Assembly: GCA_028753945.1 (NCBI GenBank)
Contig: JAPNXP010000012.1
Coordinates: 5,292,501 to 5,356,500 of the forward strand
DNA length: 64,000 nt
Reading direction: 5' to 3'
DNA from: Hexactinellida sp. DTS-2022
Lineage: Eukaryota > Porifera > Hexactinellida
Shown: positions 8,463-59,915 of the stretch, piece by piece
Layout: every line of letters starts with the position of its first letter
Numbering within the stretch: the stretch's first letter is position 1
Made by a program: the position numbers and the translations under genes
Notes under the pieces: generated by a model
What the model was told of the DNA's origin: nothing
Databases searched by the model: none
Seen by the model: only the letters and a program-made list of their open reading frames with translations

Positions 8463-10274
8463 ATGCCTCCCAAACAAATACAGGTACAAACTAACGTTAC
8501 CACTGAGGAGGAATGGAATGCGGAAATGGAGAAGAAAGGCTTACACGTTGTGGAGGTGTACGCTGAGTGGGCGGGGCCTTGTAAGTCTGTCGTTGGAATT
8601 TTCAAGGATTTGAAAAATGAACTCGGGGACCCTCTTCTCCTTTTCGAGACGGTAGCAGCGGAGAAGTTAGCGCAGCTGGAGCCCTACAGGAACAGAAGCC
8701 AACCGACCTTCCTTATGTTCGCGGCCGGGTGTCTCGTCGCGGCAGTTCACGGCTGCAACGGGCCAAAGCTGTACCAAATGATAAAGAGCGAGCTCGAGAA
8801 GGAAAAGAGGAACATGGAGCATAACCTGGATCGGTTTCCGTTCGAGGATACTGAGCTGTTGAAACTGAAGCAAATCGAAGCCAACTTGGGACTCGAACCG
8901 ACGTCTGAAGAGAGAGAAGAAGAGATCATTCCCGTTCGCAAGGAATTCACGATCTGCATCATAAAGCCAGACTTAGTATCGGCCGGCAAAGCGGAGGAGA
9001 TCCTGTCTCTCCTCCGACACAAGTTCATAGAGGTTCTAGCTCGCAAGGAGGACACGCTGAGTGAGGAGGTCATTCGGGAGCTGTACTCGCACCTGCAAGA
9101 GGAGAGCTACTTTCCGGAGCTTCTCACCTTCATGACCAGCGGCCCTTCTGTCATTCTACTCCTCTCCAAGATGGGTCTAACGGGGGAGGGGGTCATCCAG
9201 GAGTTCAGAGACATAATCGGTCCGTTTGACCTGGAGACCGCCAAGGAGCAGTCCCCTCAATCGATACGCGCCCTCTACAGCTCCTCCAACATAGAGAACG
9301 CGATCCACAGCAGCTCCAGCCTCGAGCAGGCGGCCAGAGAGCTGGCCTTCTTCTTCCCGGAGTCCAGTGTCCCCTACGTCCGACACACAGTTCCCCAGGA
9401 GAGAACCCTGGCGCTCATCCGTCCGGACGCCCTGGCCGGACACAGGGATCAGCTGTTGCAGAGAATACGGGAAGCCGGGTTCGAGATTAGTTTCGTTCGA
9501 GAGGTGCAGCTGACGCGGGAGCAGGTGGAGGACTTCTACATCAGCCAGCGGGAGGAGGAGGGGTACGAGAAGCTTCTAGCGGACATGAGCTCTGGGCCCG
9601 TCCTGGCGCTGTGTCTGGCAGGTAGGAATGTGGTGCAGGGGTGGATCGACCTGATACAGCCCCTCCTCCCCGAGAGGGAGCAGTCAATAGAGAATGGGAA
9701 CTCCAGACGTCTGAGCATACAGGATATAATCAATGAGATTCTCCCCGAGGCGAGTGAGGTGCCTATATACGGTTCTGCGAGCAGCCAGACAGCAGTGGCA
9801 GACCTCGACGTGATATTCCCCGAGCAGGAGACCGTAGCGGTTATAAAGCCGAATGCGTTTCAGCACAAAGAGACCATAATAGACAAGATTAGAGATCTGG
9901 GATTCACTGTGAAGGCTCAGAAGGAGCAGGTTATGAATGAGGAACTGTTCGAAGCTTTCTACAAACAGCACCGGGGCCAGGAGTTCTACGAGAACCTGAA
10001 GGAGTTCATGACGTCAGGTCCCTCCGTAGTGCTCTTACTGACTGAAAGGAATGCGATCTCTAACTGGAGGGAGGTGATGGGACCAACAGACCCGTCCGAG
10101 GACACTCGGGGACTGAGGTCCATTTTCGGGAGTGACACTTTGGCTAACGGCCTGCATGGGACTTCTAATAATACCAAAGTGCAGGAGCTAGTCCAGCTGC
10201 TATTCACAGAGCGCACCCCGGTCACTGCTGAGGAGAGGGAGACCTCAGAATCCGACGAAGACGGAGAAGATTAG
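8463..10274 (+). CDS. NME8: thioredoxin/NDK protein of ciliary axoneme
   Basis: 603 aa, single exon (human NME8/TXNDC3 is close to this length). NME8 relatives are axonemal dynein intermediate-chain-associated proteins of motile cilia and sperm. A thioredoxin fold covers residues about 10-115, then three nucleoside diphosphate kinase domains (about 161-300, 314-453, 456-582), each with an IKPD/IRPD/IKPN start. The thioredoxin active site reads WAGPC (36-40), so the first redox Cys is Ala. The catalytic His is present in NDK1 (NAIHSSSS, His282) and NDK3 (NGLHGTSN, His565) but missing in NDK2 (SQTAVADLD). The C-terminus is acidic. It pairs functionally with DAW1 at 45781-47034 in this window. 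Confidence 0.93.
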   Translation: MPPKQIQVQTNVTTEEEWNAEMEKKGLHVVEVYAEWAGPCKSVVGIFKDLKNELGDPLLLFETVAAEKLAQLEPYRNRSQPTFLMFAAGCLVAAVHGCNGPKLYQMIKSELEKEKRNMEHNLDRFPFEDTELLKLKQIEANLGLEPTSEEREEEIIPVRKEFTICIIKPDLVSAGKAEEILSLLRHKFIEVLARKEDTLSEEVIRELYSHLQEESYFPELLTFMTSGPSVILLLSKMGLTGEGVIQEFRDIIGPFDLETAKEQSPQSIRALYSSSNIENAIHSSSSLEQAARELAFFFPESSVPYVRHTVPQERTLALIRPDALAGHRDQLLQRIREAGFEISFVREVQLTREQVEDFYISQREEEGYEKLLADMSSGPVLALCLAGRNVVQGWIDLIQPLLPEREQSIENGNSRRLSIQDIINEILPEASEVPIYGSASSQTAVADLDVIFPEQETVAVIKPNAFQHKETIIDKIRDLGFTVKAQKEQVMNEELFEAFYKQHRGQEFYENLKEFMTSGPSVVLLLTERNAISNWREVMGPTDPSEDTRGLRSIFGSDTLANGLHGTSNNTKVQELVQLLFTERTPVTAEERETSESDEDGED

Positions 10275-10324: not shown

Positions 10325-10446
10325 TATTTAATATTTATTCATATAAAACATTATACAAAGTATAACAATATTTATTCGTATAAAAACATTAACAAAGTAT
10401 AACAATATTTATTCGTAAAAAAACATTATACAAAGTATAACAATAA
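10325..10446. repeat. short AT-rich tandem repeat downstream of NME8
   Basis: About three units of roughly 40 bp built on TATTTATTCRTATAAAA followed by CATTATACAAAGTATAACAA. It lies between convergent NME8 (+) and the sacsin-PARP gene (-), so it may contribute to both 3' UTRs. Nothing else is visible in 10275-10504. Confidence 0.7.
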
Positions 10447-10504: not shown

Positions 10505-13500
10505 TTATCTGCTGTATGTGATGAGATAGCTGGGGTAAGCCAGTCCGTTCTGATACAGAATGTGTACCTGTGACCCACCAGTACATCCCTGTATTGAGTG
10601 GAACTTTCCCGTTGGCCCCACAATAGACCCATCACTCTTTCTCACCTCTGAGTATCCAACAAACACCTGTGCGAGGAACATACAATACTCTCCATTTCCC
10701 AAACTATGCGCGAGTGCATCCGAATAAGACGAGTTAACAGCAAAATACAACCCCTTTCCCCACATTCCACCGTTCGAATACTCCATTGAGAATCCGACAC
10801 GATGCTCGTATATGCTTTTTGGGTGAGTTGTTCTAGTTCCGTGGAAAAGCGGCTTTATCATGAGACACGAATCTCCGTATTTGCTAACTTGCAACTCGAC
10901 GTTACGTTTGAAATCCTTCCAGCATTCTCTGTTGATTATCTTCTCAATTGAGATTATTTTAACTTGGGGCAAGGTGGCGAAAAAACTGCGCGCTACCGTG
11001 AAGAACTCGTCCGAATCTGTTCGTAGGTTTAGTGTGCCTAAGTCGCAGTCCATTGGAACTAAATATAGAGTTAATTTAAATGTGGTAATGAATTAAAACT
11101 AATACATACAGTCACATTACAGTGGACTCTCATTAATACGAACACGGATAAGGCAAATATCGGTTAAGATGAACAAGATGTAATTACTCTAGCCTTACAA
11201 ATGCATGGAGATTACTCCGGTTAAAATTTCGATGGTCCCTTGGTGTTCCTATTAACGAAACTACTGTATAAATAAACTTACAATTAAACATTTCGTTTAT
11301 CGAGAGACAGGACATCTCTATGAACCCGCTCTCCCCTTCCTCTATCATGAGAGACTCCAGGTTGGGTTCGTTATGTCGAGTCGCCTCTTTCAGCTTCTGT
11401 AGAATCTGTCGCACGGATTTTATCGCCCCGCGAGCAGTTTCCAGCGTATAGAACTCCCTGGGAGTGTAGAACCCAATGCCAGGCGTCATGCATGGGAAGC
11501 GCGTCGGCTCATCATAGTTCATGAGTGGGATCACCAGTTCTTCCAGCCTCGCGGCTACCGCTTGAGTAGTATACCTGGCCACCTCTCCCAGGAGGAGAGA
11601 GAGGTTCCTGTCCGAGAGTGCGTCGCTGCAGGAGCCACCGTAGAGGTAGAGCACAGCTGTGAGGGCCTTGAGCGTAGCCTCAAAACACAGGAAGCACGAC
11701 TGAGGGGGAAATAAGGTGCTCTCCTCGGTCGACTTCTTGCTTAGTTTGCTGGCAGTTCTCCAATCGCACTGAGCTGTCCTGATCCATAGCTTGGCGGCTA
11801 AGGGGTCAGGCCGCTCTGCTCCCACTCCGGGCCGGGGGTTGTCTGCTCGAACTATTCTCGCGTGCGTTCTATGACTCGTGAGAGTCACTAGCGTAACAGG
11901 ACCAGACGGGAGAGAGGGTATGAAAGGAGGAGCAGCAATAGGAACAACAGAGGTAGCAGGGGTAGCAGCAGGCACTACTGGTGGTACGGGAACCGAGGGT
12001 GTCTGAGGTAATGGGATTTCGTCAAGGAACGGACAGTTCTGAATCTCCAAGTCATGGAATACTGACATGACAGTGTCTAATGCTATTTTGAAACAGAACT
12101 CGAGCGCGTTCAAAGTTTTTGAGAATATTTTCGCTAGAAACGAGTTTAATTCAATTGCGACGAATGTTGGGAGAGTGCTTCTCTTGTCTGATGACGAGTT
12201 GATGTAGAATTCATTTGTGTTCAGGTCTTTGTAACAGCTGAGTGCGTTAGAAATGGTAAACACCTCATTTGTGCGATTATCTGTTATATCGAGGTCAATC
12301 TGTGAAACAGAAATAACGGCAAGCTCTCTCACTAGGTCTAAAACAGGTTTGTAACCTTCATTTACGGGGAAATCGTTTTGATCCTCGCTATAGAATATCT
12401 GTCCATCTCGTAGCTTGAGGTGTATAATGTTCTTGTTAGTCTCGTGGTAGTAGAGCCGCATTAAACTTCTGTGGAAGTGTTGCGATACAAATATCTGGGA
12501 GTATATTGTAGTCAGTTGGTGGTTTGGTATTGTGTAAGTGGATATGGAGGTAGAGAGGCTTGGAATCAGTACTTGTTTCAGATTTTGTATTTTCAGGTGT
12601 GTGGGAGGGACACCGGATCCATTTTCATCAGGGGGCAGAGTTTTTAGGATATTTATCTCAATTCTCGTATTTCTTTTTACTTTCGCGAGGAGAGATGTGT
12701 TTTCCGCGTAATACACGATGTCGCATGGCATAATCCTGTCGTCGTCTGTTAGCACATGGGTATCGGACGGGTCTAAGTCTATATCTGCGTCAGAGGGGAG
12801 ACTCCTCAACATGGTTACCAAAGTGGAGAATGCTATTTTAGCGCATTCACTCATTCTCTCGTTGTCCAGGCGATGGTCTGTTGGAATACTTTCCAAGTAA
12901 ATAAATCTCAAAACTGAAATGTAGTGTGTGAAAGTAGCTGTTTGCTCAACACCAAGTATAGTTAGGAAATTCCGAAACTTGGAAAGTGAAGAAGGGACCT
13001 TGAACAGATAAGGGGATATTTCCTTTTCTAGCTCAAACACTAACTTCATTTTACTAAAAATGATCCCATTGCTGGTTATACAATCGAATTCCAATTCTTG
13101 TGAATTGAAGTCAGGTTTGTTTTGTAGATAGGAGTATGTCTCGTGGAAGAGACGCTCATGAATAACGTTATCCTCTGGGGACTGCTCCTGGCACTGCTCT
13201 GAAATAGTCCTCAGATGCTCTATCACAACGCTGCAAGGTGGGTTAGTTTGGATATTCAGATATGGCCAGTATTCCTGTGGGATATCAGACACCAGCTCTG
13301 GGAGGATATAACACATGGTGCCACATATACCAAGATTGCTGTGTGGGAGAGCAGTTTGTAAACTCCCCAATTCTCTGTCGTAGGTTAATTCCTGTCCATC
13401 GATTTTGCTTATTTTCTTAATGGGTACACATTTAATTTCTGAAATGGTACCCAACAGAGCAACGTCAGTTTGAGTAAGTAGCCTCATTTCTCTGAGGAAG

Positions 13501-16500
13501 TTTACAAGAATAGATAGAAACTTGTTGATTTCATCATCATCATAATTGTAATCGGCAATTATGCAAGCACAGTGTTTTAAGATAGGCAATGTGACACACG
13601 TTTTTAGACCCAACTTTGTGAGGATGTTTATTAGAGTTTCGTTATCCCAGGCCTTGGGTAATAGCTCGTCTTTCAAGCATAGTATGAACAAAGGCACTGT
13701 TCTTAAATAGAGTTGGTCTGTAGTGACTTGTTCATCAGAATTGTGCTTCTTGATAAATGGGATTGAGGACAGTATTGTGTAGAGATTCTCTTCAACTGGT
13801 CCCTCTAGTTTTGAAATAGCTCTGAGATAACTAATCTGCTCCTCGAGAGGAAGGTCTGGGAAACAAGGAAGGATGTAGTCAGATACAAATTTTTCTGTGT
13901 CTATTAGCTGTATTTTCATTTCAAAAGCAACACACTTAATCAGATTGATAGGGTTTTCATCCTCTGTTTTGGCTGAGAAGATTCCTATTCCTTGAGCTTC
14001 CAACTCCTGCGTTAAAGATTGCTCAATTTTAAAATTGCTTTCATTAACGAAACAAACTGTGAATTCAGAGATGGATTTTAAGGTTTTATTATGCGTCAAA
14101 AATATTCTTAGTTTGAATAGTATTTTAGCTGAGAGCTTTATTTGGACATCTTGCATTCCGGACATAGATTTCCTTAGCAACAATGCCTCTTCAGGTCCTA
14201 GCTCTGCTGCGAGGAAAGCTCCAAGAAATAAACATCCAATCAGCTGTGTTAAACTAACTTGATCTGAATCAGATATAAGTTGATTTTTCATAAAACTTAA
14301 CAGCACCTTATCTGGGCAAATGACTTCTTCCTTAAAATCTTTTAAATCTAGAAATGGACAATCGAGCTTTCTAAGAGCGGTGCAGAGAGTCGCCTTACTT
14401 CCCACCAAGTCTTCGCTTACAATGTAATCTAACTGATTAATCGGATAATTGTATAAAGATGTATCATTAGGATTCTCTCCCCTGTGATACACTGGGACTA
14501 ACGCATGTGCGCCGAACAGCTGTACAACCTTACCGATACTCTTGCACACCTTGATTGCAAACCTCCAAAATAGCAGATAGCAAGGTTCACTGAATGCTTC
14601 GTCAATAAGTATATTATTCGCTAGAAATTCAGGACTGAGGTCACTGATGAAACCGAGCTGAGTTAGGCGGTTATTTAATTCTTTAGCGAAATCTAAGTGA
14701 ATAAAGTTTGAAGCACAGTGGGGTAGGAGAGAAGCGTAATCTGAGAGGAAAGTTAGAGAACTGTCTTCTGTGTCTTTACTAAAGCTACAGAGGATTTCTT
14801 GTGAATCGATCTTCAATGGAATTTCAGTGAGTGCATTCAACTGATCACTGCTAGCCTTCAGAACGAATTCGAGGAGGATTAACACTTCTCGGAAACTGAG
14901 AACTGAGTCTTTTAGTTCACAAGGGAATCCAGCATCCCCGAACAGTAATTCCTTGTCATTAATCAGGAAATTTGCCAAATGATCAGGGTCCAAAGTTTGG
15001 TATTCCAAATTAAGAAACTTTACTTGTTCTAAAATGCGATGAGGCGCGTTTGTTAATGGATATTGAATATTATTTAAGGCTGAGTAAAGAGCGCCTAATT
15101 CTTTATCTGTTTTAACTTTAAACACGCCTTGATTGATTGAGTATAATTTCTCCATATCATCGCTGATCAGCACTTGTTGATTAGTCTCATGCAGGAGAGC
15201 GTACAACTCCCTACTAATCAGCTCTAGGAAGGGGGCATTGTTCGCTTTAGAAATACTAATATTAGGAAACACAGAGTAATACCATTTGTAGTATTCAGCT
15301 TCTGAGTCTATGTCTGTACAGATAAAATGCAAGTCTCTTAAGTCCAACAGGAGTTTAGCATAGAGCGGTACCAACACGTGATGAATGACAGACTTATGCC
15401 AAGTGTATTCCCACTGCTCCTCTCCTCCCTCTTGTCCCTTCTCGCTGAACTTCAAGAAACGTCTGTGTGGGTCAACAATTAACGGAGCGTTGATGTGAAT
15501 TGGGAAATTAAACGAAGTTCCTATTGGCAGGAAGCAGAAAATGTAGGACCACACCTGTTTTTTTTTAGAAATGTTTGTTAGATTTAGTGCGATGTTACCA
15601 AATATTTGGCTTAGTTTTTCGGCCTCTATCTTATCTCTGAACTTTTCATGATCAGGGAAAAAGTCAATAGATTCTTCGTGGTTGTAGCAGAGCCATTTAG
15701 TTGACTCTTTTTTCGATTTAAATTTAGTGCTAGGCGGATTGGAAGTTTCTGGGATTCTCACCTCGTTACTAGCTTGAGATTTAACTGAGACGGCAGTCCA
15801 TGTTTCTGTTTTTATCTCTTTAACGGTCACTACGACTGATTTCAGATATTGATCAGAGTAGAATTCTGGGAGATCCGGGGAAATATCTGGGTGTAAGATT
15901 GTGTTGCTTATCAACATTCCTTTAGGCTGAACCTCTCCATTTTCGTCAATACACATGATGTCTATTCTCTTTATGTTTTTCAGAAACAATAAGAGTCTAC
16001 TTGAATGGATAAGCAACTGATCAAGTATTCCATTTATTTTCTTCTTTATATCGTGTTTCGTTGCAGTCAGTGGAAAGCGAAATAAAGAATAGCACCCCCC
16101 GAATTTGAGATTTGTCAACATGTCTGGAAAATTGTCGTTCTCTGTGATTGCTAAAACTTCATATGGTCTCAGCTGATCTTTAAAAACCTGTTTACAATCG
16201 TTTCGCATTTTTATCTTCTTTCCTGGCAGTTCGGATTTATCTGAAATGTTTAGATATTCTCTGTATGGATCAAATATACAGAATGTGGTCGTGTCGCCTC
16301 CTGGAGAGGTGAGGAGACAGGGGGAGCGCGTGAGGTGGTACACGGCATTGAAACCTATTCCGAACCTACCGATGGTCTGACGACTCCTCTTACCGCCTAT
16401 TCCTACCTTCTGAATTCCTACGAGGTCATTCTCCGTGAAAGCTTGGTTGTTATAGACGAGCAGGGAAGGAGTGGACTGTAGCTTCTGCCATTCTTTATGC

Positions 16501-19500
16501 GTATCCGCTGCGAAGCATAGGTAGTCTGTGGGGTATTCCTGTTTATCGAGAATAAACGCTATTTCCGTAGCCCCCGCGTCTTCCGCGTTCTGTAGAAGTT
16601 CGTTCAGAATTGTGACATCACAGGTAACCTGAGACTTTATATTCTCGATGCGATCGGATATAGCTTCACTCGGCCCGAATTTCTCCATCTGAATCCCTTC
16701 TATGGACATGGGCTCTTCCTCGAAATACGTGCTTCGCATGCTTTTCGCACCGAGTATATGCGCCATGAAGGCGGGTATATACTTGTTCACAATAAATTCC
16801 TTGTCTGTGTCAGTGAAGGTATTTTCCATCCAATCTATGTCGTTTCGGAATAAATCTTTCGCCAAATGGAGACAGTTATTCTCCGATAAGAGGGATGTTT
16901 CTTCGGGCGGGGTATTATCTCTGTTCTTATCGTAATACTTACCTACCTCCTCCAAGATTAATCGTTTCGCTAATTCAAAATCGCATTCTTCTAATATATT
17001 TCCGTCATACTCCTGTCTCATCTTTGACAGAATCTCAATTGCCTCCGAGTGCTCTACATTTGGCTTCAAGCCCATAAACTCAAAGAATTGTCTCACTTTA
17101 TTATAATTCGATGCGAGCAATTCGGGGTATGGGAATGTGATCAGAAATTTGCTTTTGAAATTGAGAAATTCAGAAGCAATCTTTACCTGAGATATTTCGT
17201 AGAATTGTTTGTAAGCTGGATGCCAAATCCACGCTTTGTTCTTCAGATTTTCCTTTAGCTGCTTCCTAGATTGCTTTTTCTTCATGCCTTCTGAGTCATC
17301 CGAATCTCCCGCAGGAAAACAAAACCAAGCCAGCCACGAATAAATTTGTTTAATTCTCTCATCCAAATAATCGTCTTCATATTCTCTAAGTGAGTCTTCT
17401 TTGCTACAAAAGATTTCCAATAAATCTACAATAATATTCTGGTCTCTAACAATGCTCTGAATATTGAGTAATTCCAAAGCCTTTCCCAGTTTACTAACGT
17501 CTTCGCTCAGTGCGTAATACCGGGGTGTAAGCAAATAGCGACAGGAATACGAGTAGCACTCCTCAGGCGGGATCAGGTATCCTGTTTCTCTGCAGTCTAA
17601 ATGGATGAAAAGTGGATCTTCCCAAACTGGTAGGAAATCAATACTCGATAAGGAATTTGGGATTGCACGACATGTGTTAATGTAGTTGAGTAGTATCATG
17701 GAGTGCTTGTGTCCCTGATCTGTGTCATCGCTGTAGATTGACTGAGCCAAACTACAACGCTCGATTAATTCCTTTTCACTAAGACCATCTAGGATTATGC
17801 CTAATTGTTGTAGAACATATGTTTCTTTTTTGAATAATTTGTGGAAATCTGTGTGAGGGAGTCGTCTTTCTTCTGGATAGTATATGGAAGAGAATTTGGA
17901 ATCAGGATGCACAACTTCAGACGGAATCCTCAACACGGGATCCGAGTCCCCGCAGGGAATGAAAGCGAGATTACGGAGTGGAGACATGTAATGAAGGTAA
18001 TATTCTTGCTTTGAATAAAGATCAAGAAGATTCGAAATGACAAATAATAAATCCTTTAAGCTAGATTCCATAATTACTTCTATATTCGGAAATAATAGCT
18101 CCTCACAAATTCTCTTAAAATCATAGGATTTACTTGACACCCTGAAGAGATTCGTAAAGAACTGAGTATGCTTAATTGAATTTGTTATGTCGACGAAAAA
18201 AATGCCCATTTCAACAGCTAATTTTTTCAAAAACATGATAAACTCAAGATTGAGATTCGTGCATGTAAGAAATGAGACTTCGCTAAAACTTATCCAGTTT
18301 TCAGGATGGAGAGCACATGGGAATAGAGGCAGATCACAATCAATAATTTTTTGTATTGTTTTAGATGTATAAGTGTCCCATGGCTTTTCCTTTATGTCCG
18401 ACAGAGGAAAATATGAATAGTATTTCTCCAGCTGAGCAGAGCTGGTGGCTTGAAGGAACAATTCCTCTCTTATATGCATCAGTAGAGATATAAGGGCGTT
18501 TGGGAGAGCGTCATTTATGAGGGAACAGTTCCACTGAGTCAAGTGTGCATTCTCTTCAGTTATATGTAACTCAGTTCTGTAGGAGCTCAGATGGAAATAG
18601 CCATTGATATGCATACGGTAGGGAGATTTCTTTGGGATGGGAAGGAAACAGAACAACTTATAGTCCTCTTCACATTTATGTTTTGCTTTGCTGTTTTCTG
18701 GGGACAAGAGTTGTCTCGGTATTCCAACAGCTGCTACTGGGAGGACAGACGCCTGTTTGAGTTCTTCAAACTTGTTAATGACGTCAACACATTCCTCCGT
18801 CCCCGAAGCGTAGGATAGGATGTATTCCTCACAGCTTGACTTGTCCCTGCAAATCTCTATAACTTCTATGGCACTCACGTGGTCTTCTCGCTCGCATTTA
18901 ACTATTGAATTAAAATGGTCTTCGTAGTGGTTGAGGAATGATGTTTGGTAAGGACGGGTTTTAAATGTCTTGTCAACTTTACAAATAAGTTGTTTTTTCC
19001 CTCCTTTTTCCCGGCGTTCGTAAACTTCGATAGTTTGTACGTATTGTAAGAAAAATATAACTTGTTCGATGATATCTAGAAAGGATTGTTGGAGTTTCTT
19101 GATGTCTCCTTTCTTGTGGAACAGCCCGGTAGGTTTTATCATTGAGGCGGTCCTGGGAGTCCGAAAGGGAAAACGAAACAAAGTACCATCATAAGGGATT
19201 TCGCTAAAAACGTTGCAATCGAAGATATCATTGTAGACTTCGAATTGGTCGAAGTAGCACTCTTTCAGGATCGCCTCGTTTTCTGTAAAATTTATTTCCA
19301 ACCCACTCTCCCCACAGAATAAATGAGGATCGAGAATGTGAATAAATCGGCCACTCACAAAACTGGGGATATCAGTTAAATGATAAACCGTGTTAAAGCC
19401 CAGCCCAAATCTTCCAATTTTAGTAGTATCAGTTTTCTTCGTCTCGCCACCAATATCCATAATATTCTCAAAATCGTTAGTTGAGAAAGTTTTGTCATTA

Positions 19501-22500
19501 TACACATATAAACTTGGGCCCTGACACACTTCCATTTCAGATCGAATCAGACTTGTGTTGCCGTAGGAAGACATGTCGAAAAGGAATTTAACAGTTTTAG
19601 CTTTCGCATCATCTGCGTTTTGTAAAAGTTCTTTGAACACTTCGACTGGTGCCTCATAGCGATCCACAATATCCTTAAGTCGGTTTGTTAGTCGTTCCTG
19701 CTGGCTCTTGATTTGATAATCGAATTTCAGTTTTCTACTCGCAATAGTTATGATGCTGGAACTCAAACTGATCGCACCTAGCTTGTCAGCTGTGCTGTTG
19801 GAGATCTGAGGATGCACAAAGTAATAGGACTTGTTATTTATTTTGATATCGCCTTTGTAGCCTCCTTTGTTCTTCCACGTCAAGTCAAATAAAATACTTT
19901 CAGTAGATTTGTGAATGTATTTATCTTCTCCGATTAAGAAGATCGTGATAGAACTACTTGACTTCCCAATTTCTTCATACAGTCTGTTCGCCATTTCGTC
20001 AATTAATGTTATCGCTAGTGCTTCGTCAGTTGGATTTAGCTCAACATCTGCTTTCCACAATTCTTCAAGTACGTCTAAACATTGTATTAGAGTCAATGTT
20101 TGTCCTACCCCGATTGACAAGAATAACTTCTTTTCTAACCTATACAGGTGTTTAATACTGTGTATGTAAGGAGAGAAAGATCTTTCGTGTTCGAAGATTA
20201 CTCTCTCGGGGGCGACGAAACCTACCTCTGGAATGTAGATGCACTTCTTATCTAAATTAGCAATTATGAAAGTTCTGTCCTTCTCCATTCTCTCCGCTAA
20301 TTCTCCAAACAAACAAGTCATCTTCTCTAAGAGCAGTTCTGAATGCAAACTTAACTCTTCGTAACTTTCTCTACAAACCACGATTTCGTTTAATAGCATA
20401 TCGGTTGGAATCTGACCTGTACAGTTCGGCTGTATTTTTAGCAGCTTAATAGCATGACTAAGACAACTGACGTCATAAGTTAGAACAGTGCGTTGCAGAC
20501 CGAGGAAGTGCCTGAGTGAATAAACAACCACTTGTTTGGGAGCTGCTAGGCAGTCTTCTGATTGGATAGAAAGTGGGTACCCCTGGAGAGTTGGGATAAA
20601 TCTTTGATTTGATAATATATCATACATTTGTTCTGCATCATAATTGCTGAAAATGTCCTGGTTCAAATAGATAAGAATTTTCCCCGCAAGGTGAGTATCT
20701 CGACCTGCAACTATTTTGGCAACTCGCTCTTGTAAACAAGAGAGCGTTAGTTGTTTCGAAAGTAATCCGAATTCTTTCTTTAGAATCTGGTAGCAGGGTG
20801 AGTCAGTGGTGAAGAGTGGGGCCCTGCTGGATGGGAGTCTATTTTCTTCAGGGTAGTACAGGTCTGAAAGAATGCTATTATTTGGGTCAATAACATCTGA
20901 TGGCACCCTCAACTGATACGAATCACCACAAGGAATACAGGGAACATTTGAAATCAGATTGAAGAGAATAGGAATCGAAGAATGAGACGCGATCAACGCA
21001 GGAAGTAGTCCCATCATTAAACCCTCAGACATTTCATGTAATGATTCAAAGAATAGTTCTACAATCCTATTTATGCCGATTATACTGTCGTTATTGGTAT
21101 GCGTCAACAGGAAGTCGAGCAGACCGCTGGACTGGTGGAGTTCTGCTGGCACAGTAGCAATTTTAAGACCTTTTAGGTTGAACAGAAACTGTTTTATCGA
21201 GTCTAAAAAACTTTGATTAAAATATGCATCTACAATTTTATCTTTTAACTCCAATTCATTTAAAACGGCCACTTCGCTGAAAGAGCTCCAGCTGTTCCCT
21301 TGGGCTGAAGTTACTGGGAATAACCGTGCTTTGGATTGCATTAACTTCTGAGTTATCTGAACACAAAACGTTTTCCAAACCGGGTGGGAGATCATTTTCT
21401 TTGTGAATATATTGTATAGGAAATGGCAGTACAAGTCTGGCTTTGCTTTTTCAGCCAAACATGTGTACAGATTAAGTACTGCATTCGTTAGAGCGTTGCT
21501 TATCAGAAATGTGTTCCATTCTGTTTTCTGAGGTTCCATAGCTTCATTAAATAATGCCATCTTACCACTATCCAGTTCAAACATTCCATTACAGTGATAT
21601 GGTAACTGTAACGAGACAGATAATGGGTGTAAGCAGAATAATTTTGTCTCAAATACCAAATTTCGCTCGGTTAATCTGGTTAGATCAAATGCTACAGCAG
21701 TGATTGGAGCGTGGATCCGATAATTCTCGTTTTTCATCGAGTTAACAATGTTAGCTAACTCATCTCCTCCGCCACTGGTATAGCAGAGCAACCAGTACTT
21801 AGGGGAATGCGTAGTCGAAGAACTGATTGAACATTCAAAGGAATGTTCGATAGAATCGATAGGCTCTCCTTGTAAACATCGTTCTAAGGTAGTTTTTTGA
21901 GTCTTTAACAAAGATTGGAAGTTTTCTGGCTCTCGCTTTTGCCAATAGATAGGCTTAATGTGAGCTCCAGCATTTGTGAAAGTATTTCCTCTCAATTCAC
22001 TGATTTCAATTCTAGTTAAGTTTTCAGTAAAAAGTAGGATATTTTCAACATATTTAATTATCAATTTCTGTAGGTATTCCATATTCTTGTCGTATGATTT
22101 AACTGAGAGCTGGGACTTAATGCCAACAGATCTCAGAGGGATACGGAATAGAGTTGACTTGTAAAATTCATTATTAAGAATATTACAACCGAACAGGTCT
22201 TGGTATGGTGCAAACTGGTCTCGGTAGAACTTGACAAACTTCTTGCTGCAGAAATCTATTTTACAGACATTAGATTGGAAGTATTTCTGCTCCGTGTACC
22301 CCATGTGTGGGTCCAGAATATGAAGTGTATCTCCACTGACAAAGCTCGGTAAGTCAGTCAGATAAAAAGCAGAGCAAAACCCTATCCCATCCCGACCTAT
22401 CTTAGTAACATCGTTCGCTTTTCCTCTCCCGCCCACACAGAGGATGTTATGGCAATCGGATTCCTGCATAACTTTGTCGTTATAGAACCAGATAGCAGGG

Positions 22501-25500
22501 CCTTGCCAATGGTGCATACCTCTGGAGAGTAGGGAGGAGGTGTCCGGATTGTCAAAACTGGGATGGCGACGATAATCAAATAATATTTTCAATTGACTTG
22601 CTCCTGAATCATCGCTGTTCTGTACCATTTCCCTGACTAGTGCTAGCTCATCAGAATACGATTCTAGCAGGCATTTAATCTCTTGTATAACGGATTGATC
22701 TTTGTCAAGTGTCCCATAGTGAGCCCCGGTAGCTACACGCTCATAGAAAGATGTTATGCCCAGGTTAATAGCTGTCTTTCTCGAGATTCTTTCGTGAGCG
22801 AACACAAATGGAAACTCGGAACATATCTGAGCACGGTTGAGCCACTTGTCATCGGAGAATACGAGTCTATCGTCGCTAGTTGGATACATCACGTTATCGT
22901 GACCAGGCACGTAGATAGTATATACATTTGGATCAAGATAGGAAACCTCAAGGATCTTCATTATGATGCCAAGTTGCTGGGGACTGATAGGATTTCCATT
23001 TGATTGGATATAGATTGTATTTAAAACTGAGCTGTATTGATCAGCTGTTGGGCTCGTAGACATTCCTAATGACTTGAAAAGTTGGAGGCAATTGTAACCA
23101 AGGTTAACATACGAGTATAAATAGGGTCTCATATCGAATTCCGTAGTTTCAGTTATGTTTGCAATTTCAATAAATTCTCTCCTCTCTTCTGAGAATATAA
23201 AACGACTTTTCAGATTTTGCATACTTGGAGATGTTGTGTGTAGATTTAGGTTTTGGTAGATTGTAGACATAACCTTGTGCAAGTTCGAAAAGTCGCATTT
23301 TTCATTATGAAACGAGTTGATGATGTAATTTAACTGTTCTACAACATAACTACAAGGAATTTGAGTTTCGAATGTCATGCAGCTTAAGATCCCTGTGTGG
23401 GTATCTCCGTTCTCTGGTGAGCTCATTTCCGGTATAACGATGAATCTCCTCACAAAGGCAATTAATGGAACTTGTTCTAGGGTGCAAGCAATAACTTGAG
23501 AAGGGAAGCACAAAGTTCCATCAAATGGTAGCTTGAATGGCATCAGTGATGGAATATCTAATTGCGGAAGTACGAATTTCTTGTTGAACTCCTTCCAGAG
23601 ACTCTCCTGGTCTCTTAGTTCGCATTTATCAAAGTAGAGAGAAATGAGTTCTAGAAGAGCTCTGAACATTGTCAACCAGTCTACGTAACACTTCTGCTCT
23701 CTAAGGTTATTGATAGCTGCTTTGCTCACTTCTTTACGAAGCCGCGAGTTAAGATTGTTATTCGATTTGAATTCGAAATATTTTTTCATTTTCTCGACAT
23801 GGTCGTCGTATAATCCATTCGGGAAAAACCCCTCATTGCTCCTATCGATGAGCTGCTTGAGTAGAGGGTCAATTGGATTCAGCATACCAGAAGGTTTGAA
23901 CAACTTAACTTGTCCTGATTTATCGCTTGGAGTGCTAGAGTCTACCAACCATTTGGTGTCTCTTAAGAATTCCAATAACTCATCTCCAGTAGCTAGTTGA
24001 AGCGTGGGAAGTCGATCTAGCACCCATACGGCTAAAAGATTTCTAGTTAAGGGGAACTGAAAAAGTTCACTTGATATCATGTAAGGTACGAGGTCTAGTT
24101 GAATAAATTCATTTTCGTTGTTATTGCTGATATTCAGTTTCTGGTAGAGGACCACAAGGGGACTATCGAAGGGAGTTAGAATGTAGGGAGGATAGTCTAT
24201 GTTGTCGGGTATAGTTTTGGGAGCGAGGACGGGAAACCGCTGACCTATTTGAGTACTCAAAGTGAGCCAATGCCCCTTAAAGTTCAGAAAGATTGGTACT
24301 CGTTTAACAATATCCCGCGCTTCTTTTTTGTCGAGCGGAATCGAATTGAAGAATTCTATCAATTGCCTGTGTGTGCTATTGTTTGTCTTTGAAATTAGTG
24401 AAATGAATTGTGTTAAAATGTGCTCATTGCGAAATACGCTTATGAGACATTGGGGGACTGGTCGCAACACGAAATCTTCAAAACGTTGGATAAAGAAGTG
24501 ACGGTGACAAAGCTCACATCCAGCTTCAGACAGAATATTTTCTATTTCCGTTGTCCCCCTAGTTGCGTCAAACTCGACGTAAGGCACTTCATTGGATTGT
24601 GCAGATAAGAGCTGTATAGATTGTGTACTGAGCAGGCCTTTGGGCAGGATGGGAAAATGCTCCACAGCAGATAGCAGTGTAGTGCTTGTACCAATAAACT
24701 CCCATAGAGACTTTATCCAGTTAGCTCTAGGCTGATTATTGCAACCTGGTGTCCAAGTGAGTGGGGGAGTAACTGAATGGAAAGTTGTATTAAAAAATAG
24801 TGTTAATAAGCAAGAGAATGTCTCAGGTTCTATGTGAGTTATGTCTCTAATGTTGATAGCAATAACTCTGGAAATATTCACAAGTTTCCCGTGGATATTC
24901 TGAGGAAGTGCAGGGTCAACAAAACGACTCTCGAGGCCTGGAAATATACTCAGATACTTCGAAGTTATCTCACTGATGTAGTATATTTCGCTTGCTTCTG
25001 CAGAGAAAGTTCTAGGCTTGCTAGACTTGTCAGCTGTTAGGAGGAGAGGAATTCCTTCTAACGCCTCCTCCAAATGGATGTCATCACTCGAAGGCTCAAG
25101 ATCCCATAAAACGATATCTAGCAGCTGAATAGCGTTTTGTTTCGTTGCTAGGAATTCAAGACACAATTTATTAAATGAGTTCAGTCTTAAAATATTTCTC
25201 ATTCTCTTAGGAGAGAGTATCTGTGGTCTTATGCTTTCCTTCAGGAATTGGTATTTAGCAATTAACGCTATCACATTTGATGGCAGCTCCACGATTGGCT
25301 CTGACAGCCTCAACAGTAGGTTGATGCAACACCTCTCTGTGTCAGAGCTCCAAACAGACTCTGTGAGCTCAGGAATAGTACTCGGAGCGTATAGCGCCTT
25401 GTCCAGTGGAATCCAGTGGAGAGATTGTGAAAACACGAGTTTCCGATCCAATAGCAACCTCAGGCCTTCTCGCTGTATGATAGAGAATAGGGAATCGTCC

Positions 25501-27181
25501 ATCTCATGGATATTGAAGTCACCGAATAGTTTATAATGATAGTTTTCTGGTTGAGGGTGGGAGAAGTTTAAAATTGAAAGATGTAAGAAGCTAGCGTAGA
25601 GAACAGTCCCAAGCATTTCCGATTGAAACTTATTCCATTTACTGTCTGGACTTCTATCGTAGGAAGACGGCCATTTGGGAGACTTGCGGTTATCGTCCAA
25701 TGCAAAGTACGCATGTATATGAAATGGGAAAAGGGATTCCTTGGGGATAGGCAGAAAACAATAGTATTTCCCATCGTTTGTGTCGAGAATAGAATCCGAG
25801 GACAGTGGCAATGAAAATCTCACATTGGATTGTATAAACTCTAAAATACTGTCGAAGCTACAACCGTTCCAATCGAACTTCCACGTGTGGTTATTTTCAA
25901 TGCTATGACAAGATTTCGCGCCGGTAGGCATTCCTATTCCGAACCAAGGAATATATTTTAAAGTATTTTTACAGTAAAACCTGTAAAATTCGTTGTCAGA
26001 GCTCTCTGGACTACGCTCACCAAATCCTAACAGATTCATGACCAGCCAAATTGCCTCACTTCCATTTGTATCAATCGGGTACAAGGTAATGAATAGCCCG
26101 GTTTTCTCATGGTAACACTTATTCTCCGCGAAAATTGTAATTTCTTTTCTATGCGCATAGAGGCTCTGTTTGAATCTATCTGCGACTGCGACAGAATGCA
26201 CTACACTTACCTTGTTGTTCACTTTCTCGAGTATCCGTATCTGGTTAACATACTTCAGGAAAGGAATGATATGCTCCCCTTCACGAATTAATGGGTCGAA
26301 TAGGACACTCCTTATCTCATCAACTCCGTGTATCTCATTACTAATGCTAGAACTGTAGCTACCGGTTCTCAGAGGAAATCGGAAAATAGTACCGCTAAAT
26401 TCAGACCCACCGTTAAAACCGAAATAATGCCGAGAGAAACAGCTATGGTGGCCGGAGTATTTAGGGTTTGCAAAGAAACTGGACAGCGGGTAGCGACGCC
26501 CCGATTTATCTGGATTCTCATTCTGAGGATCCAGATAGCAGATGTTCTGTTTGCTGATGATCCATGGGCAATCTAGGATAGCAAAATAATAACGTTGGTT
26601 TGTAGTTGTATTTATTTATGTTATCACCTGTAATATGGTACATTGAGATAAAACCAAGTCCGAATCTTCCAACTTTGAGATAGTCCTCTTTCTTAGAGCT
26701 CCGTCCCGTCTCTTCAATTCCCTTCCAGTCCCTCTCAGAGAAACTAGCGCTGTTCCAGGAGTAGAGAGCGGGGCCCTGGTACTTAGCCAGAGAGGGGTCC
26801 ACCAGGCCAGCCCCCTCCTGGCTGTGGGAATCGAGGTCTAACATGAAGTCAACTTGCTCGGCCCCAGCGTCATCAGCATTCTGAATGACTTCCTATTCAA
26901 CGCAATTGTGTTAATTAATTAATTCAAGACGCATAAGTATACCATAACATTTGACTAACTTACCTTGAGTATTTGGTCCCCGAATGGATATTTCTCAAGA
27001 ATGCTCTGTATTTGCTCTAAAACTGTCATCTGTTTGTGTCCGAAGACCTCTCCATCTGAAATGAGGTCTCATTAGCAGTAATGACACAATTACAATATTA
27101 CTTGCAATAAATTGAATTTATTTATTATTAATTCTAAAAATAGATACTAGTCTTGAATTTTGGGTACTAACCTGTCGCCAT
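10505..27181 (-). CDS. SACS: giant sacsin-like protein with HEPN and PARP catalytic domain
   Basis: Five exons on the minus strand: 27181-27172 (ATGGCGACAG), 27055-26964, 26892-26628, 26572-11282 (15.3 kb) and 11058-10505. Phases agree throughout and give about 5403 aa. Sacsin is a large Hsp90-like ATPase/co-chaperone. Four ATPase modules are seen, with QNADDAG or equivalents at residues about 38, 1440, 2440 and 3450, each followed by a GR.G.GF glycine box and a LDP/FDP motif; human sacsin has three. A Pro-rich linker precedes a HEPN domain (about 5050-5190, AKLWIRTAQCDWRTA and CFLCFEATLKAL). No DnaJ (HPD) or ubiquitin-like domain is seen. The last exon is a PARP catalytic domain: LFHGTR (His5292), GMWGKGLYFA (Tyr5324), PSYLITY near the end; the PARP1 Glu position is Val, so mono-ADP-ribosylation is expected if active. 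The fusion rests on an in-frame GT-AG join (T|TT); without splicing the ORF ends at 11184 inside a MITE. Confidence 0.85.
11120..11266. mobile_element. pogo-like MITE in the HEPN-PARP intron
   Basis: Starts CAGTGGACTCTCATTAATAC and ends GTTCCTATTAACGAAACTACTG, with the usual interior (CTAGCCTTACAAATGCATGG). It fills most of the 223-bp intron between the HEPN exon and the PARP exon. Read in the sacsin frame it adds an artificial tail of about 30 residues to the unspliced ORF. Confidence 0.75.
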
Positions 27182-29128: not shown

Positions 29129-54122
<24,994 letters not shown>

Positions 54123-54653: not shown

Positions 54654-55631
54654 ATGAAGGAAGACCCCTCAAGTGAGCGTGAAGAAGTATTTTCCAAAAG
54701 ACAGAAAAACGAAATTCCAATTGTCCTTACGAGAAACAAAGAGATACCTTCAAAAACCTTCATAAATACGTTCAGGAGTTTCTCAATTGAATTCCCAACA
54801 AATGCACTTTGCCTTCATCCCACCAAACAACTGATGGCATTATACGGCACTCCGGTTCGATGGCGGCTAAACAATCGCTATATACTTATTTATACAATCG
54901 AGGGGTACCTCGTTACCAAGTTTAAGGTACAGGAAAGGGCGTATAGTGTCATAAATACAAAAATCTATTTCTCAAATCACATAATAATTGCTTTTTTTAA
55001 TAGTACATTTCTAAGTAAACTGATATTATATAACGGCTACAATGCAAAATACAATGTGGTACTTGACGAATGCATTTTCGATTGTGGTGAAAACGAGTAT
55101 TTATATTTATGGGAAAAGGGGAATAATCGTATCAACATATACTCGCACGATTTTCAGAAAATAGGAACATTTACAGCTTACAAATCTGCTGGTACATCTA
55201 TAGCACTCAGAATAAGAGGAGATACAATGGTAGTGCTCAATGAAGAACCGCAGTCGGATAAAGAATCATCTATTGCTAGTCCGCTCTGTGACAATATAAC
55301 TATTTTAAGATTCTCGATTACAAACGATGAACTGCTTGAAAGTATTAAATTCAATGATAGATCCTTACTATTTCCGAAGTACATCGGTTTAGACCCGTTA
55401 AGTAACGTACTGATTACAAATGATTCATCAAAGAAATTAGCCGTGTGGTATCGAGACGGTCGACTGAGATACTACGACACTCCTGAATATATTCACACTA
55501 GAGCTACGGGTTTGGAAATGACAGATGATTTCCATATAATTAGGACGGAGTATGACTATCTTGATCATGCTATAAGGGTTTATATGTTCGACATTCCCAT
55601 TGGATATACTATAGAGATACTAGATAGTTAA
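54654..55631 (+). CDS. predicted beta-propeller protein, copy 1
   Basis: 325 aa, single exon, intact. The N-terminus is polar (EREEVFSKRQKNE). From about residue 40 the chain is a run of short beta-strand repeats: CLHPTKQLMALYGTP, ILIYTIEGYLVTKF, INIYSHDFQKIGTF, GLDPLSNVLITNDSSKKLAV, then WYRDGRLRYYDTPEY. The blade pattern (hydrophobic strand, D/N, strand with an aromatic residue) resembles NHL or WD-like propellers, with about six blades, but no canonical NHL or WD signature is strong enough to name. No signal peptide or membrane segment. First of four tandem paralogs; it differs from copy 2 mostly in the N-terminal third. Function unknown; probably a lineage-specific family. Confidence 0.8.
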   Translation: MKEDPSSEREEVFSKRQKNEIPIVLTRNKEIPSKTFINTFRSFSIEFPTNALCLHPTKQLMALYGTPVRWRLNNRYILIYTIEGYLVTKFKVQERAYSVINTKIYFSNHIIIAFFNSTFLSKLILYNGYNAKYNVVLDECIFDCGENEYLYLWEKGNNRINIYSHDFQKIGTFTAYKSAGTSIALRIRGDTMVVLNEEPQSDKESSIASPLCDNITILRFSITNDELLESIKFNDRSLLFPKYIGLDPLSNVLITNDSSKKLAVWYRDGRLRYYDTPEYIHTRATGLEMTDDFHIIRTEYDYLDHAIRVYMFDIPIGYTIEILDS

Positions 55632-56064
55632 TGTATTTGATATAAGCTGTATAGAGTGTATCAATTAATTTTTAATTTTGTGGTATATCAAAGAATAACA
55701 CAGGATTTTGATTGGGGTTTGTTTTACTCTTCTTGGGTTGCAAGGAAGAGCATTAAGCGCTATATAAGTACAACAGTATAGTATGTATCTGCTACTGTAT
55801 ATACAGTGAGTAATAGCAAGTCCTGTTTCGCACGAATTTGCTTACAATAAGCGAATTTGCTATTAGAGGAACAGAATTAAGACTAAATGTTCGCTTTGTA
55901 GATAGCACTATAGATGGCAACTTGCTATTAGGCAAGGGGACCGTCGATACCTGTTCGTGTAACCGGGCATGCATTTGTATAGGCTAGGGGAATTATGCTA
56001 ATTTTCCTTATCGGTGTTTATATTAACGAATAACAGTTGTATTATTATTATATTCTAAATTTAG

Positions 56065-56150
56065 ATACTATGCCAAGTTGCCAACTATGAAACACAAACA
56101 ACAACTTGGTTACACCGGGTCACTAAAACTGAACACAGCATTTTGAAAAA
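56065..56150 (+). pseudogene. degenerate copy of the STXBP4 WW exon (unit 2)
   Basis: Matches STXBP4's last exon from its acceptor (AAATTTAG) through GAAACACAAACAACAACTTG to AACACAGCATTTTG. An 8-bp insertion (CCAAGTTG) after ATACTATG breaks the frame, so it cannot code for the WW half-domain. Confidence 0.85.
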
Positions 56151-56199
56151 AATATAAAAATACATATATTTTAGCGAATATATTAAAATGCGTAGCGGT

Positions 56200-56410
56200 T
56201 AGGTGATCCATCGTGAAGCTTACGAGTACAAAGGGCCCGTTACATGTATATTCATTCCACCCTATGGGAGAAAATCTCAAATTTCAGCTGTGCTGACAAC
56301 ATATTCTGGTGGAGGCACTCTTAGTCATTGAACCACCAAATATAGTGCCTCCAAGTGACTATGCAGTCGACACAGCTGTAATTTTTGATTTTTCCTAACT
56401 AGAAGATTAT
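56200..56410. repeat. inverted-repeat block upstream of copies 2 and 3
   Basis: Nested inverted words: CAGCTGTG with CACAGCTG, and TGGAGGCACT with AGTGCCTCCA around GGTGG/CCACC-type pieces, about 100 bp in all (56285-56385). It is preceded by TGCGTAGCGGTTAGGTGATC. It is repeated at 58000-58210 and absent from units 1 and 4, so it entered one unit before that unit duplicated, or was lost from the others. Confidence 0.65.
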
Positions 56411-56458
56411 AAATAAATATGAAGTATTATGAACTATAATTATTAGTTTGCAATTAGT

Positions 56459-57436
56459 ATGAAGAAACGCCCCTCAAGTGAACGTGAGGAAATATTTTCC
56501 AAAAAACAGAAAAACGAAATTCCAATTGTCCTTAAGAGGAACAAAGAGATACTACATTCAAAAACCTTCATAAACACGTTCAGGAGTTTCTCAATTGAAT
56601 TCCCAACAAATACACTTTGCCTTCATCCCACCAAACAACTGATGGCAGTATACGGCACTCCGGTTCGATGGCGGCTAAACAATCGCCATATACTTATTTA
56701 TACAATCGAGGGGTACCTCGTTACCAAGTTTAAGATACAGAAAAAGGGGTATAATGTCATATATACAAAAATCTATTTCTCAGATCACATAATAATTGCT
56801 TTTTTTAATAGTACATTTCTAAGTAAACTGATATTATATAACGGCTACAATGCAAAATACAATGTGGTACTTGACGAATGCATTTTCGATTGTGGTGAAA
56901 ACGAGTATTTATATTTATGGGAAAAGGGGAATAATCGTATCAACATATACTCGCACGATTTTCAGAAAATAGGAACATTTACAGCTTACAAATCTGGTAC
57001 TCTTAAAGCACTCAGAATAAGAGGAGATACAATGGTAGTGCTCAATGAAGAACCGCAGTCGGATAAAGAATCATCTATTGCTAGTCCGCTCTGTGACAAT
57101 ATAACTATTTTAAGATTCTCGATTACAAACGATGAACTGCTTGAAAGTATTAAATTCAATGATAGATCCTTACTATTTCCGAAGTACATCGGTTTAGACC
57201 CGTTAAGTAACGTACTGATTACAAATGATTCATCAAAGAAATTAGCCGTGTGGTATCGAGACGGTCGACTGAGATACTACGACACTCCTGAATATATTCA
57301 CACTAGAGCTACGGGTTTGGAAATGACAGATGATTTCCATATAATTAGGACGGAGTATGACTATCTTGATCATGCTATAAGGGTTTATATGTTCGACATT
57401 CCCATTGGATATACTATAGAGATACTAGATAATTAA
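56459..57436 (+). CDS. predicted beta-propeller protein, copy 2
   Basis: 325 aa, intact. Nearly identical to copy 1 from about residue 105 to the end (including FDCGENEYLYLWEKGNNRIN) but with many differences before that (MKKRPSSEREEIFSKKQKNE, HSKTF for SKTF). At KSGTLKAL it is one codon shorter than copy 1 and resembles copy 4 (KHGSVKAL), which suggests gene conversion among copies. The fold prediction is as for copy 1. The start follows TTTGCAATTAG by one base. Function unknown. Confidence 0.8.
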   Translation: MKKRPSSEREEIFSKKQKNEIPIVLKRNKEILHSKTFINTFRSFSIEFPTNTLCLHPTKQLMAVYGTPVRWRLNNRHILIYTIEGYLVTKFKIQKKGYNVIYTKIYFSDHIIIAFFNSTFLSKLILYNGYNAKYNVVLDECIFDCGENEYLYLWEKGNNRINIYSHDFQKIGTFTAYKSGTLKALRIRGDTMVVLNEEPQSDKESSIASPLCDNITILRFSITNDELLESIKFNDRSLLFPKYIGLDPLSNVLITNDSSKKLAVWYRDGRLRYYDTPEYIHTRATGLEMTDDFHIIRTEYDYLDHAIRVYMFDIPIGYTIEILDN

Positions 57437-57872
57437 TGTATTTGATATAAGCTGTATATAGTGTATCAATTAATTTTTAATTTTGTGGTATATCAACGAA
57501 TAACACAGGATTTTGATTGGGGTTTGTTTTACTCTTCTTGGGTTGCAAGGAAGAGCATTAAGCGCTATATAACACAACAGTATAGTATGTATCTGCTACT
57601 GTATATACACAGTTGAGTAAAAGCAATTCGTGTTTTGCACGAATTTGCTTACAATAAGCGAATTTGCTATTAGAGGAACAGAATTAAGACTAAATGTTCG
57701 CTTTGTAGATAGCAATATAGATGGCAACTTGCTATTAGGCAAGGGGACCGTCGATACCTGTTCGTGTTAACCGGGCATGCATTTGTATAGGCTAGGGGAG
57801 TTAAGCTAATTTTCCTTATCGGTGTTCATATTAACGAATAACAGTTGTATTATTATTATATTCTAATTTTAG

Positions 57873-57957
57873 ATACTATGTCAACTATGAAACACAAACA
57901 ACAACTTGGTTACACCGGGTCACTAAAACTGGACACAGCATTTTGAAAAATAGATAA
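57873..57957 (+). pseudogene. in-frame copy of the STXBP4 WW exon (unit 3)
   Basis: Retains an acceptor (TTCTAATTTTAG) and reading frame: YYVNYETQTTTWLHRVTKTG then SILKNR and a TAA stop. Compared with the true exon, the conserved WW proline after WLH is Arg and the C-terminus differs. It could in principle serve as an alternative last exon of STXBP4 (phase fits) but more likely is a relic. Confidence 0.75.
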
Positions 57958-58259
57958 TAATACATATATTTTAGCGAATATATTAAAATGCGTAGCGGTT
58001 AGGTGATCCATCGTGAAGCTTACGAGTACAAAGGGCCCGTTACATGTATATTCATTCCACCCTATGGGAGAAAATCTCAAATTTCAGCTGTGCTGACAAC
58101 ATATTCTGGTGGAGGCACTCTTAGTCATTGAACCACCAAATATAGTGCCTCCAAGTGAATATGCAGTCGACACAGCTGTAATTTTTGATTTTTCCTAACT
58201 AGAAGATTATAAATATATATGAAGTATTATGAACTATAATTATTAGTTTGCAATTAGTA

Positions 58260-59243
58260 TGAGGAAACGCCTCTCAAGTGAACGTGAGGAAATATTTTCC
58301 AAAAAACAGAAAAACGAAATTCCAATTGTCCTTAATTAAGAGAAACAAAGAGATACTACATTCAAAAACCTTCATAAATACGTTCAGGAGTTTCTCAACT
58401 GAATTCCCAACAAATGCACTTTGCCTTCATCCCACCAAACAACTGATGGCAGTATACGGCACTCCGGATCGATGGCGGAAAAACAATCGCCATATACTTA
58501 TTTATACAATCGAGGGGTACCTCGTTACCAAGTTTAAGGTACAGGAAAGGGCGTATAGTGTCATAAATACAAAAATTTATTTCTCAAATCACATAATAAT
58601 TGCTTTTTTTAATAGTACATTTCTAAGTAAACTGATATTATACAACGGCTACAATGCAAAATACAATGTGGTACTTGACGAATGCATTTTCGATTGCGGT
58701 GAAAACGAGTATTTATATTTATGGGAAAAGGGGAATAATCGTATCAACATATACTCGCACGATTTTCAGAAAATAGGAACATTTACAGCTTACAAATCTG
58801 CTGGTACATCTATAGCACTCAGAATAAGAGGAGATACAATGGTAGTGCTCAATGAAGAACCGCAGTCGGATAAAGAATCATCTATTGCTAGTCCGCTCTG
58901 TGACAATATAACTATTTTAAGATTCTCGATTACAAACGATGAACTGCTTGAAAGTATTAAATTCAATGATAAATCCTTACTATTTCCGAAGTACATCGGT
59001 TTAGACCCGTTAAGTAACGTACTGATTGCAAATGATTCATCAAAGAAATTAGCCGTGTGGTATCGAGACGGTCGACTGAGATACTACGACACTCCAGAAT
59101 ATATTCACACTAGAGCTACGGGTTTGGAAATGACAGATGATTTCCAGATAATTAGGACGGAGTATGACTATCTTAATCATGCTATAAGGGTTTATATGTT
59201 CGACATTCCCATTAGATATACCATAGAGATACTAGATAGTTAA
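58260..59243 (+). pseudogene. beta-propeller copy 3 with N-terminal frameshift
   Basis: The homologous ATG at 58260 starts MRKRLSSEREEIFSKKQKNE, but a 4-bp insertion (CTTAATTAAGAG where copy 2 has CTTAAGAG) gives a stop at about 58338. The rest of the frame (KRNKEILHSK to YTIEILDS) is open and very close to copy 1. Unless translation starts at a downstream Met or an unusual codon, the N-terminal 27 or more residues are lost; a recent pseudogene is likeliest. Confidence 0.75.
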
Positions 59244-59915
59244 TGTATTTGATATAAGCTGTATAGAGTGTATCAATTAATTTTTAATTTTGTGGTATAT
59301 CAAAGAATAACACAGGATTTTGATTGGGGTTTGTTTTACTCTTCGTGTGTTGCAAGGAAGAGCATTAAGCGCTATATAACACAACAGTATAGTATGTATC
59401 TGCTACTGTATACAGTGAGTAAAAGCAATTCGTGTTTTGCACGAATTTGCTTACAATAAGCGAACTTGCTATTTGTGGAACAGAATGTTCGCTTTGTAGA
59501 TAGCAACATAATGGCAACTTGCTATTAAGCAAGGGGACCGTCGATACCTGTTCGTGTAACCGGACTCACTTGCATGCATTTGTATAGGCTAGGGAAATTA
59601 AGCGTTAAGTCAAGAAAATCTGGTCTAGAAATGTACGGTCTATTTTATAATTTTATAATTCCACTTGTGATGTCACGAGAGTCAGTTAGCATAGCCTGCT
59701 TTCTATGAATTTGTTCAATACTTAGACATAATATATATGCAGCTGTCAGGTGCTGTGACTACAGTAGCTAATTAATAATTATACGAGAATGCTAATTATT
59801 GCAAGTCTCAAATAAGAGATACTGGTACATACAAGCTGTTTTTGGAATAGCTAATATCCAAAAAAGTTCTATGAAAAGTTAAAATATATAAACTAATTAT
59901 TAGTTTGCAATTAGT

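Follow-up and report, generated by a model that had tools for sequence, protein, structure and literature searches.

A locus in the glass sponge Hexactinellida sp. DTS-2022 places a giant frame of sacsin-type ATPase repeats ahead of a PARP catalytic domain, raising the question of whether a single gene encodes both and what such a protein might do. Human sacsin is mutated in a spastic ataxia. The window, meaning the whole 64,000-nucleotide stretch analyzed here (C4:5292501-5356500), belongs to a genome of 112.4 Mb in 18 contigs; positions given without a contig refer to the window, and the features of the gene all lie on its minus strand. Sequence comparison makes it nearly certain that one gene encodes the predicted fusion, a giant sacsin-family protein with a C-terminal HEPN-PARP module. 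The fused model already exists in public databases under automatic labels. What appears to be new is an expanded sacsin with an ADP-ribosyltransferase end and without a J domain, of which we found no description: titles and abstract openings in the literature described no sacsin-PARP protein (most subscription journals and all preprints lay outside the scope of this search), and a term search found both 'sacsin' and 'PARP' absent from the main text of the Oopsacas and Aphrocallistes genome papers.

Gene model and domain order

The predicted gene runs from 27181 to 10505 on the minus strand and comprises five exons with GT/AG at all exon borders, encoding 5,403 residues plus a stop. Four ATPase repeats of the sacsin type come first, followed by a sacsin-like HEPN domain and then by a PARP catalytic domain that is complete. 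Exon 1 (27172..27181) holds the start codon and ends just past MAT; exon 2 (26964..27055) is bounded by the splice sites TTTCAG and GTAAGT; exon 3 (26628..26892) carries the N-box and G2 motif of the first sacsin ATPase; and the 15.3-kb exon 4 (11282..26572) supplies the remainder of repeat 1, repeats 2-4, a proline-rich linker and the HEPN domain. A phase-1 intron of 223 bp (11059..11281) separates the HEPN exon from exon 5 (10505..11058), which encodes the complete PARP (ART) domain and the stop. The coordinates of the initial annotation, its donor (11281), its acceptor (11059) and their phase are all reproduced by the spliced model.

Membership of the sacsin family is indicated by serial SACS (Hsp90-like) repeats, with four PF25794 domains in the window protein, and by the C-terminal HEPN expected of this family. 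SACS domain 1 (26217..26895) contains the intron 26573-26627 and is matched by PF25794 at C4:5318717-5319082 and C4:5319129-5319395; domains 2 (21984..22694; E 9.2e-60), 3 (18990..19700; E 1.3e-69) and 4 (15933..16667; E 2.7e-51) follow. The N-box pattern E-x-x-x-N is present in all four repeats. The layout leaves no room for an N-terminal ubiquitin-like domain, with about a dozen residues before repeat 1; the first SACS match starts near residue 34, covering the profile from position 22 onward. No J domain was detected ahead of the HEPN in a Pfam scan of three ORF pieces (no DnaJ match at E 0.01), and none of the 29 listed DnaJ matches in the genome falls within its nine sacsin loci.

The HEPN domain (11373..11819) is of the sacsin type, and its predicted structure matches 3o10 in a fold search, while a search of PDB sequences using the HEPN profile returned no match at E 1. 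The human sacsin HEPN dimerises. We considered the HEPN of the window copy as a probable RNase and rejected this, there being no Rx4-6H RNase motif: the spacing occurs nowhere within the 206-residue HEPN piece. Five of the seven paralog tails do have it, at positions in the piece that vary from tail to tail, and the other two lack it; a His at the shared Arg-Asn site occurs in one of 16 alignment rows (P0029).

Several other features accompany the gene in the window. A converging neighbor (8463-10274, plus strand) encodes thioredoxin and nucleoside diphosphate kinase domains. A class C GPCR-like ORF (38384-40588, minus strand) has a weak match to the GPR158/179 extracellular domain. Four tandem ORFs of 314-325 aa (54654-60860, plus strand) share 70-94% mutual identity; a Pfam scan confined to the first gave no match at E 0.001.

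The HEPN-PARP junction in relatives and paralogs

The nearest named protein is a 'Sacsin-like' model of 5,363 aa from Oopsacas minuta (P0004), which contains SACS and PARP domains and aligns end to end with the window model at 60.7% identity over 5,446 columns. Both begin MATDGE, and their HEPN-PARP junctions read NEMFF-FPMDC in P0004 and NEMFN-FPMDC in the window. The Oopsacas gene set, including this model, was built by Braker/Augustus with mapped RNA-seq reads, as stated in the part of its description consulted (PMC10280926). Oopsacas is a hexactinellid sponge, so the ctenophore setting suggested by the initial annotation gives way to a glass-sponge one. In two further relatives, P0029 and P0030, PF25794 and PF00644 lie in a single frame, in the order SACS repeats, HEPN, PARP, where the HEPN is assigned by alignment to other tails rather than by Pfam. 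The stretch between HEPN and PARP in these two resembles a short in-frame intron; since it stays in frame, the fusion holds whether or not it is spliced out. The frames P0003 and P0015 come from contigs of equal size (612,589), as do P0005 and P0016 (58,434), which makes it probable that sacsin and PARP frames adjoin there too. When the Oopsacas PARP end was used as a query among long proteins, a search reaching only relatives that share 5-residue words, four of 128 candidates matched: P0004, P0029, P0030 and P0005.

The same junction recurs within the genome. SACS matches number 42, of which 39 fall in nine loci with three or four repeats each; the other three are degenerate remnants at C18:5.34-5.39 Mb and lie outside the nine-locus count. 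A HEPN-PARP tail is present at seven of the nine loci, and one locus has a second, tandem tail, giving eight tails. All eight have a GTAAGT donor in phase 1 and an acceptor of matching phase (acceptors chosen by eye). The intervening introns measure 223-924 bp in seven tails and 16.1 kb in the eighth (C1:12.26-12.27 Mb). The tail is not universal: the frames of the two other loci, L034 and L035, stop shortly past the last repeat region and include no HEPN, and neither HEPN nor PARP was found in the 5.1 and 5.9 kb downstream of their ends.

These comparisons bear on whether the window instead holds two adjacent genes, a sacsin whose frame runs to the read-through stop 11186-11184, followed by a small PARP gene that begins with the ATG at 11053. 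The unspliced sacsin frame does run into a stop, and ORF predictions give the parts separately in relatives (P0003 and P0015, P0005 and P0016), as expected of intron-blind callers; against this, the sacsin frames of relatives diverge within a few residues past the donor codons. In the window the PARP frame does have an ATG five bases into its exon, but this is not general, as six of the eight PARP exons in the genome have no Met ahead of the ART core (two have none before FHG, and four only within the domain). Junction phase is identical in all eight tails. The window intron contains none of five poly-A hexamers tested, AATAAA and ATTAAA among them, whereas five AATAAA signals follow the PARP stop, the first at 10408..10413. 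Given phase, missing Met, poly-A positions, the one-frame relatives P0029 and P0030, and an ortholog annotated as fused, we reject the PARP as a separate gene and regard the two-gene arrangement as extremely improbable. The sacsin-HEPN-PARP fusion of the initial annotation thus has strong support from an annotated ortholog, from paralogs sharing its junction and phase, and from two one-frame relatives.

Phylogenetic analysis places the sacsin-linked PARPs in one clade (support 100/99), separate from six other PARPs of this genome. This tree has 19 rows, 11 of them known to be sacsin-linked, is rooted for drawing only, and leaves out L041, L044, L047 and L048 of ten further PARP sites; the genome has 53 PF00644 matches in all. 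The HEPN and PARP trees recover the same three main groups, with a different order within one of them (L025, L026, L031/L033), and the HEPN tree contains an ortholog group (window, P0004, P0002, P0003, P0005) retained across relatives. The HEPN-PARP tail has been duplicated as a unit. For the PARP domain, dN/dS is 0.71 in the pair L029/L030, based on about 20 changes, which may reflect weak constraint or fast change; it is 0.27 in a second pair that includes the frame-broken L027 and 0.19 in a third, where dS is 1.37 and near saturation, and the fourth pair is saturated. HEPN values are 0.22 and 0.16 in two pairs, with the third saturated.

The paralogs differ considerably in their state of preservation. 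At L029/L030 (C1:534600-548800) one sacsin gene has its HEPN-PARP end duplicated in tandem, with the tandem tail L030 located behind a frame change; L027 (C2:0.87-0.88 Mb) has frame changes both before the HEPN and inside the PARP. These frame changes make some copies look non-functional. L036-L038 (C18:5338500-5396400) are degenerate pieces of another sacsin-PARP locus, and the L036 ORF is presumably transposase-like. The 16.1-kb intron (L032, C1:12266400-12273500, minus strand) contains an ORF of 1,247 aa, which we take to be transposon-like with an OTU-protease-like end. Elsewhere, at C6:2100142-2147601 and also on C3, C4 and C12, there are twelve equal-score PARP matches with a 207-aa open frame, as if borne by a mobile or tandem element.

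The PARP domain and its predicted activity

The exon 5 domain is matched by PF00644 at 59 bits and is modeled with a mean pLDDT of 94.8. Poly-ADP-ribose polymerases possess an H-Y-E catalytic triad. The window protein has the PARP superfamily fold with the triad His (FHGT, 10841..10843) and Tyr (GLYF, 10745..10747), and Val where polymerising PARPs have the catalytic Glu (10565..10567), all as read initially and borne out by the spliced model. Both His and Tyr are invariant across the 23 rows of the PARP alignment, which excludes the frame-broken L027, and at the third position the sacsin-linked rows carry V, I or A, with Val in the window protein and Ile in that of Oopsacas. A fold search is led by PARP14, PARP12 and PARP15, with TM values of 0.81-0.87 (by query length) to those listed chains. 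The earlier description of the domain as mono-ART-like agrees with its resemblance to the mono-ADP-ribosyltransferases PARP14/12/15 in both sequence and fold. We therefore describe it as a putative mono-ADP-ribosyltransferase, an activity that sequence and modeled structure suggest and do not prove.

PARP13 is a catalytically dead PARP whose role is that of a scaffold or binding domain, and the fusion could be real with its PARP similarly inactive. This would fit the lack of Glu throughout the sacsin-linked rows and the presence of PARP13 (ZC3HAV1) structures among the sequence matches; these are weaker (3e-10) than PARP14 (9.5e-14), however, the closest solved domains being PARP14, PARP15 and PARP12, and PARP14 itself has Leu at the position aligned to the window Val. 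Together with the invariant His and Tyr, these points make a dead PARP unlikely in our judgment, and a putative active transferase is the reading we carry forward.

Proposed function and comparison with known systems

The most likely function is that of an ATP-driven sensor or scaffold steering a mono-ADP-ribosyltransferase. The Hsp90-like repeats would bind either a client or a ligand that is foreign or misfolded, and ATP binding would alter their shape; the HEPN would dimerise the giant protein instead of cutting RNA; the action of repeats and HEPN would position or release the tethered ART; and the ART would place single ADP-ribose units on clients, on itself or on neighboring proteins. Set apart from the fusion, this whole mechanism has in our view about even chances of being correct. 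By analogy, the likeliest setting is a cytosolic response, to stress or in innate immunity, given that the family is expanded and its ART is of the PARP14-like kind discussed for host-virus conflict. Immunity is suggested by these same two features together with demosponge sacsin-Death fusions, by the inclusion of sacsin among the domains of animal conflict proteins in the sections consulted of one survey (PMC8195603), and by oyster sacsins, listed in part of another study among antiviral genes with a sustained response after poly(I:C) (PMC7064767).

A tentative extension, to which we give somewhat less than even chances, is that a multigene family of immune receptor-effectors arose in glass sponges, its repeats sensing cargo that is foreign or misfolded and its tethered PARP14-like transferase marking that cargo or the cell's own machinery. 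If true, it would be an animal counterpart, within one molecule, of sensor-effector defence systems. The protein may alternatively be pictured as a housekeeping factor of proteostasis or the cytoskeleton, its ART marking clients or structural proteins of the sponge syncytium with no immune role. Chaperone activity of sacsin has been demonstrated, according to the portion of the literature consulted (PMC3710099), and one ortholog group, that of the window protein, is retained across relatives; yet the copies in this genome, seven loci with tails and a further tandem tail, include some with broken frames and have the appearance of a family in turnover, and we find the housekeeping role less likely. 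The sensor-effector reading joins a chaperone-like ATPase giant and ADP-ribosylation in a single polypeptide, in an animal whose genome has seven sacsin loci bearing the same HEPN-PARP tail, and could couple the sensing of stress or infection directly to protein modification. If active, the fusion would hint at a role of sacsin repeats elsewhere, that of presenting a client to an effector, and its catalytic domain is small and assayable at once.

Compared with known systems, the window protein resembles vertebrate sacsin (SACS) in its serial Hsp90-like repeats and C-terminal HEPN. It differs in having four repeats rather than three and a PARP after the HEPN, and in that neither the ubiquitin-like nor the J domain of the vertebrate layout, as outlined in the portion of PMC3710099 consulted, was found in it. 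Its catalytic domain is like those of PARP14, PARP12 and PARP15 in sequence and fold, with a hydrophobic third residue as in PARP14; unlike in those proteins, macrodomain, WWE and zinc finger were not found (Pfam at E 0.01, three ORF pieces and P0001). Animal TRADD-N proteins combine HEPN with Macro/PARP in one predicted immune protein, with sacsin in other members, but are built on TRADD-N, and the sections of their description consulted mention no sacsin-HEPN-PARP order (PMC8195603). The Oopsacas protein is the same protein end to end with the same junction, 61% identical and labeled 'Poly [ADP-ribose] polymerase' in UniRef, differing in its Ile at the Glu position and in a HEPN without the Arg-Asn segment. 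The demosponge Amphimedon has sacsin-Death-domain proteins, discussed for apoptosis and immunity in the part of PMC3710099 consulted; these likewise join a sponge sacsin to a signalling domain, there a Death domain and here a PARP.
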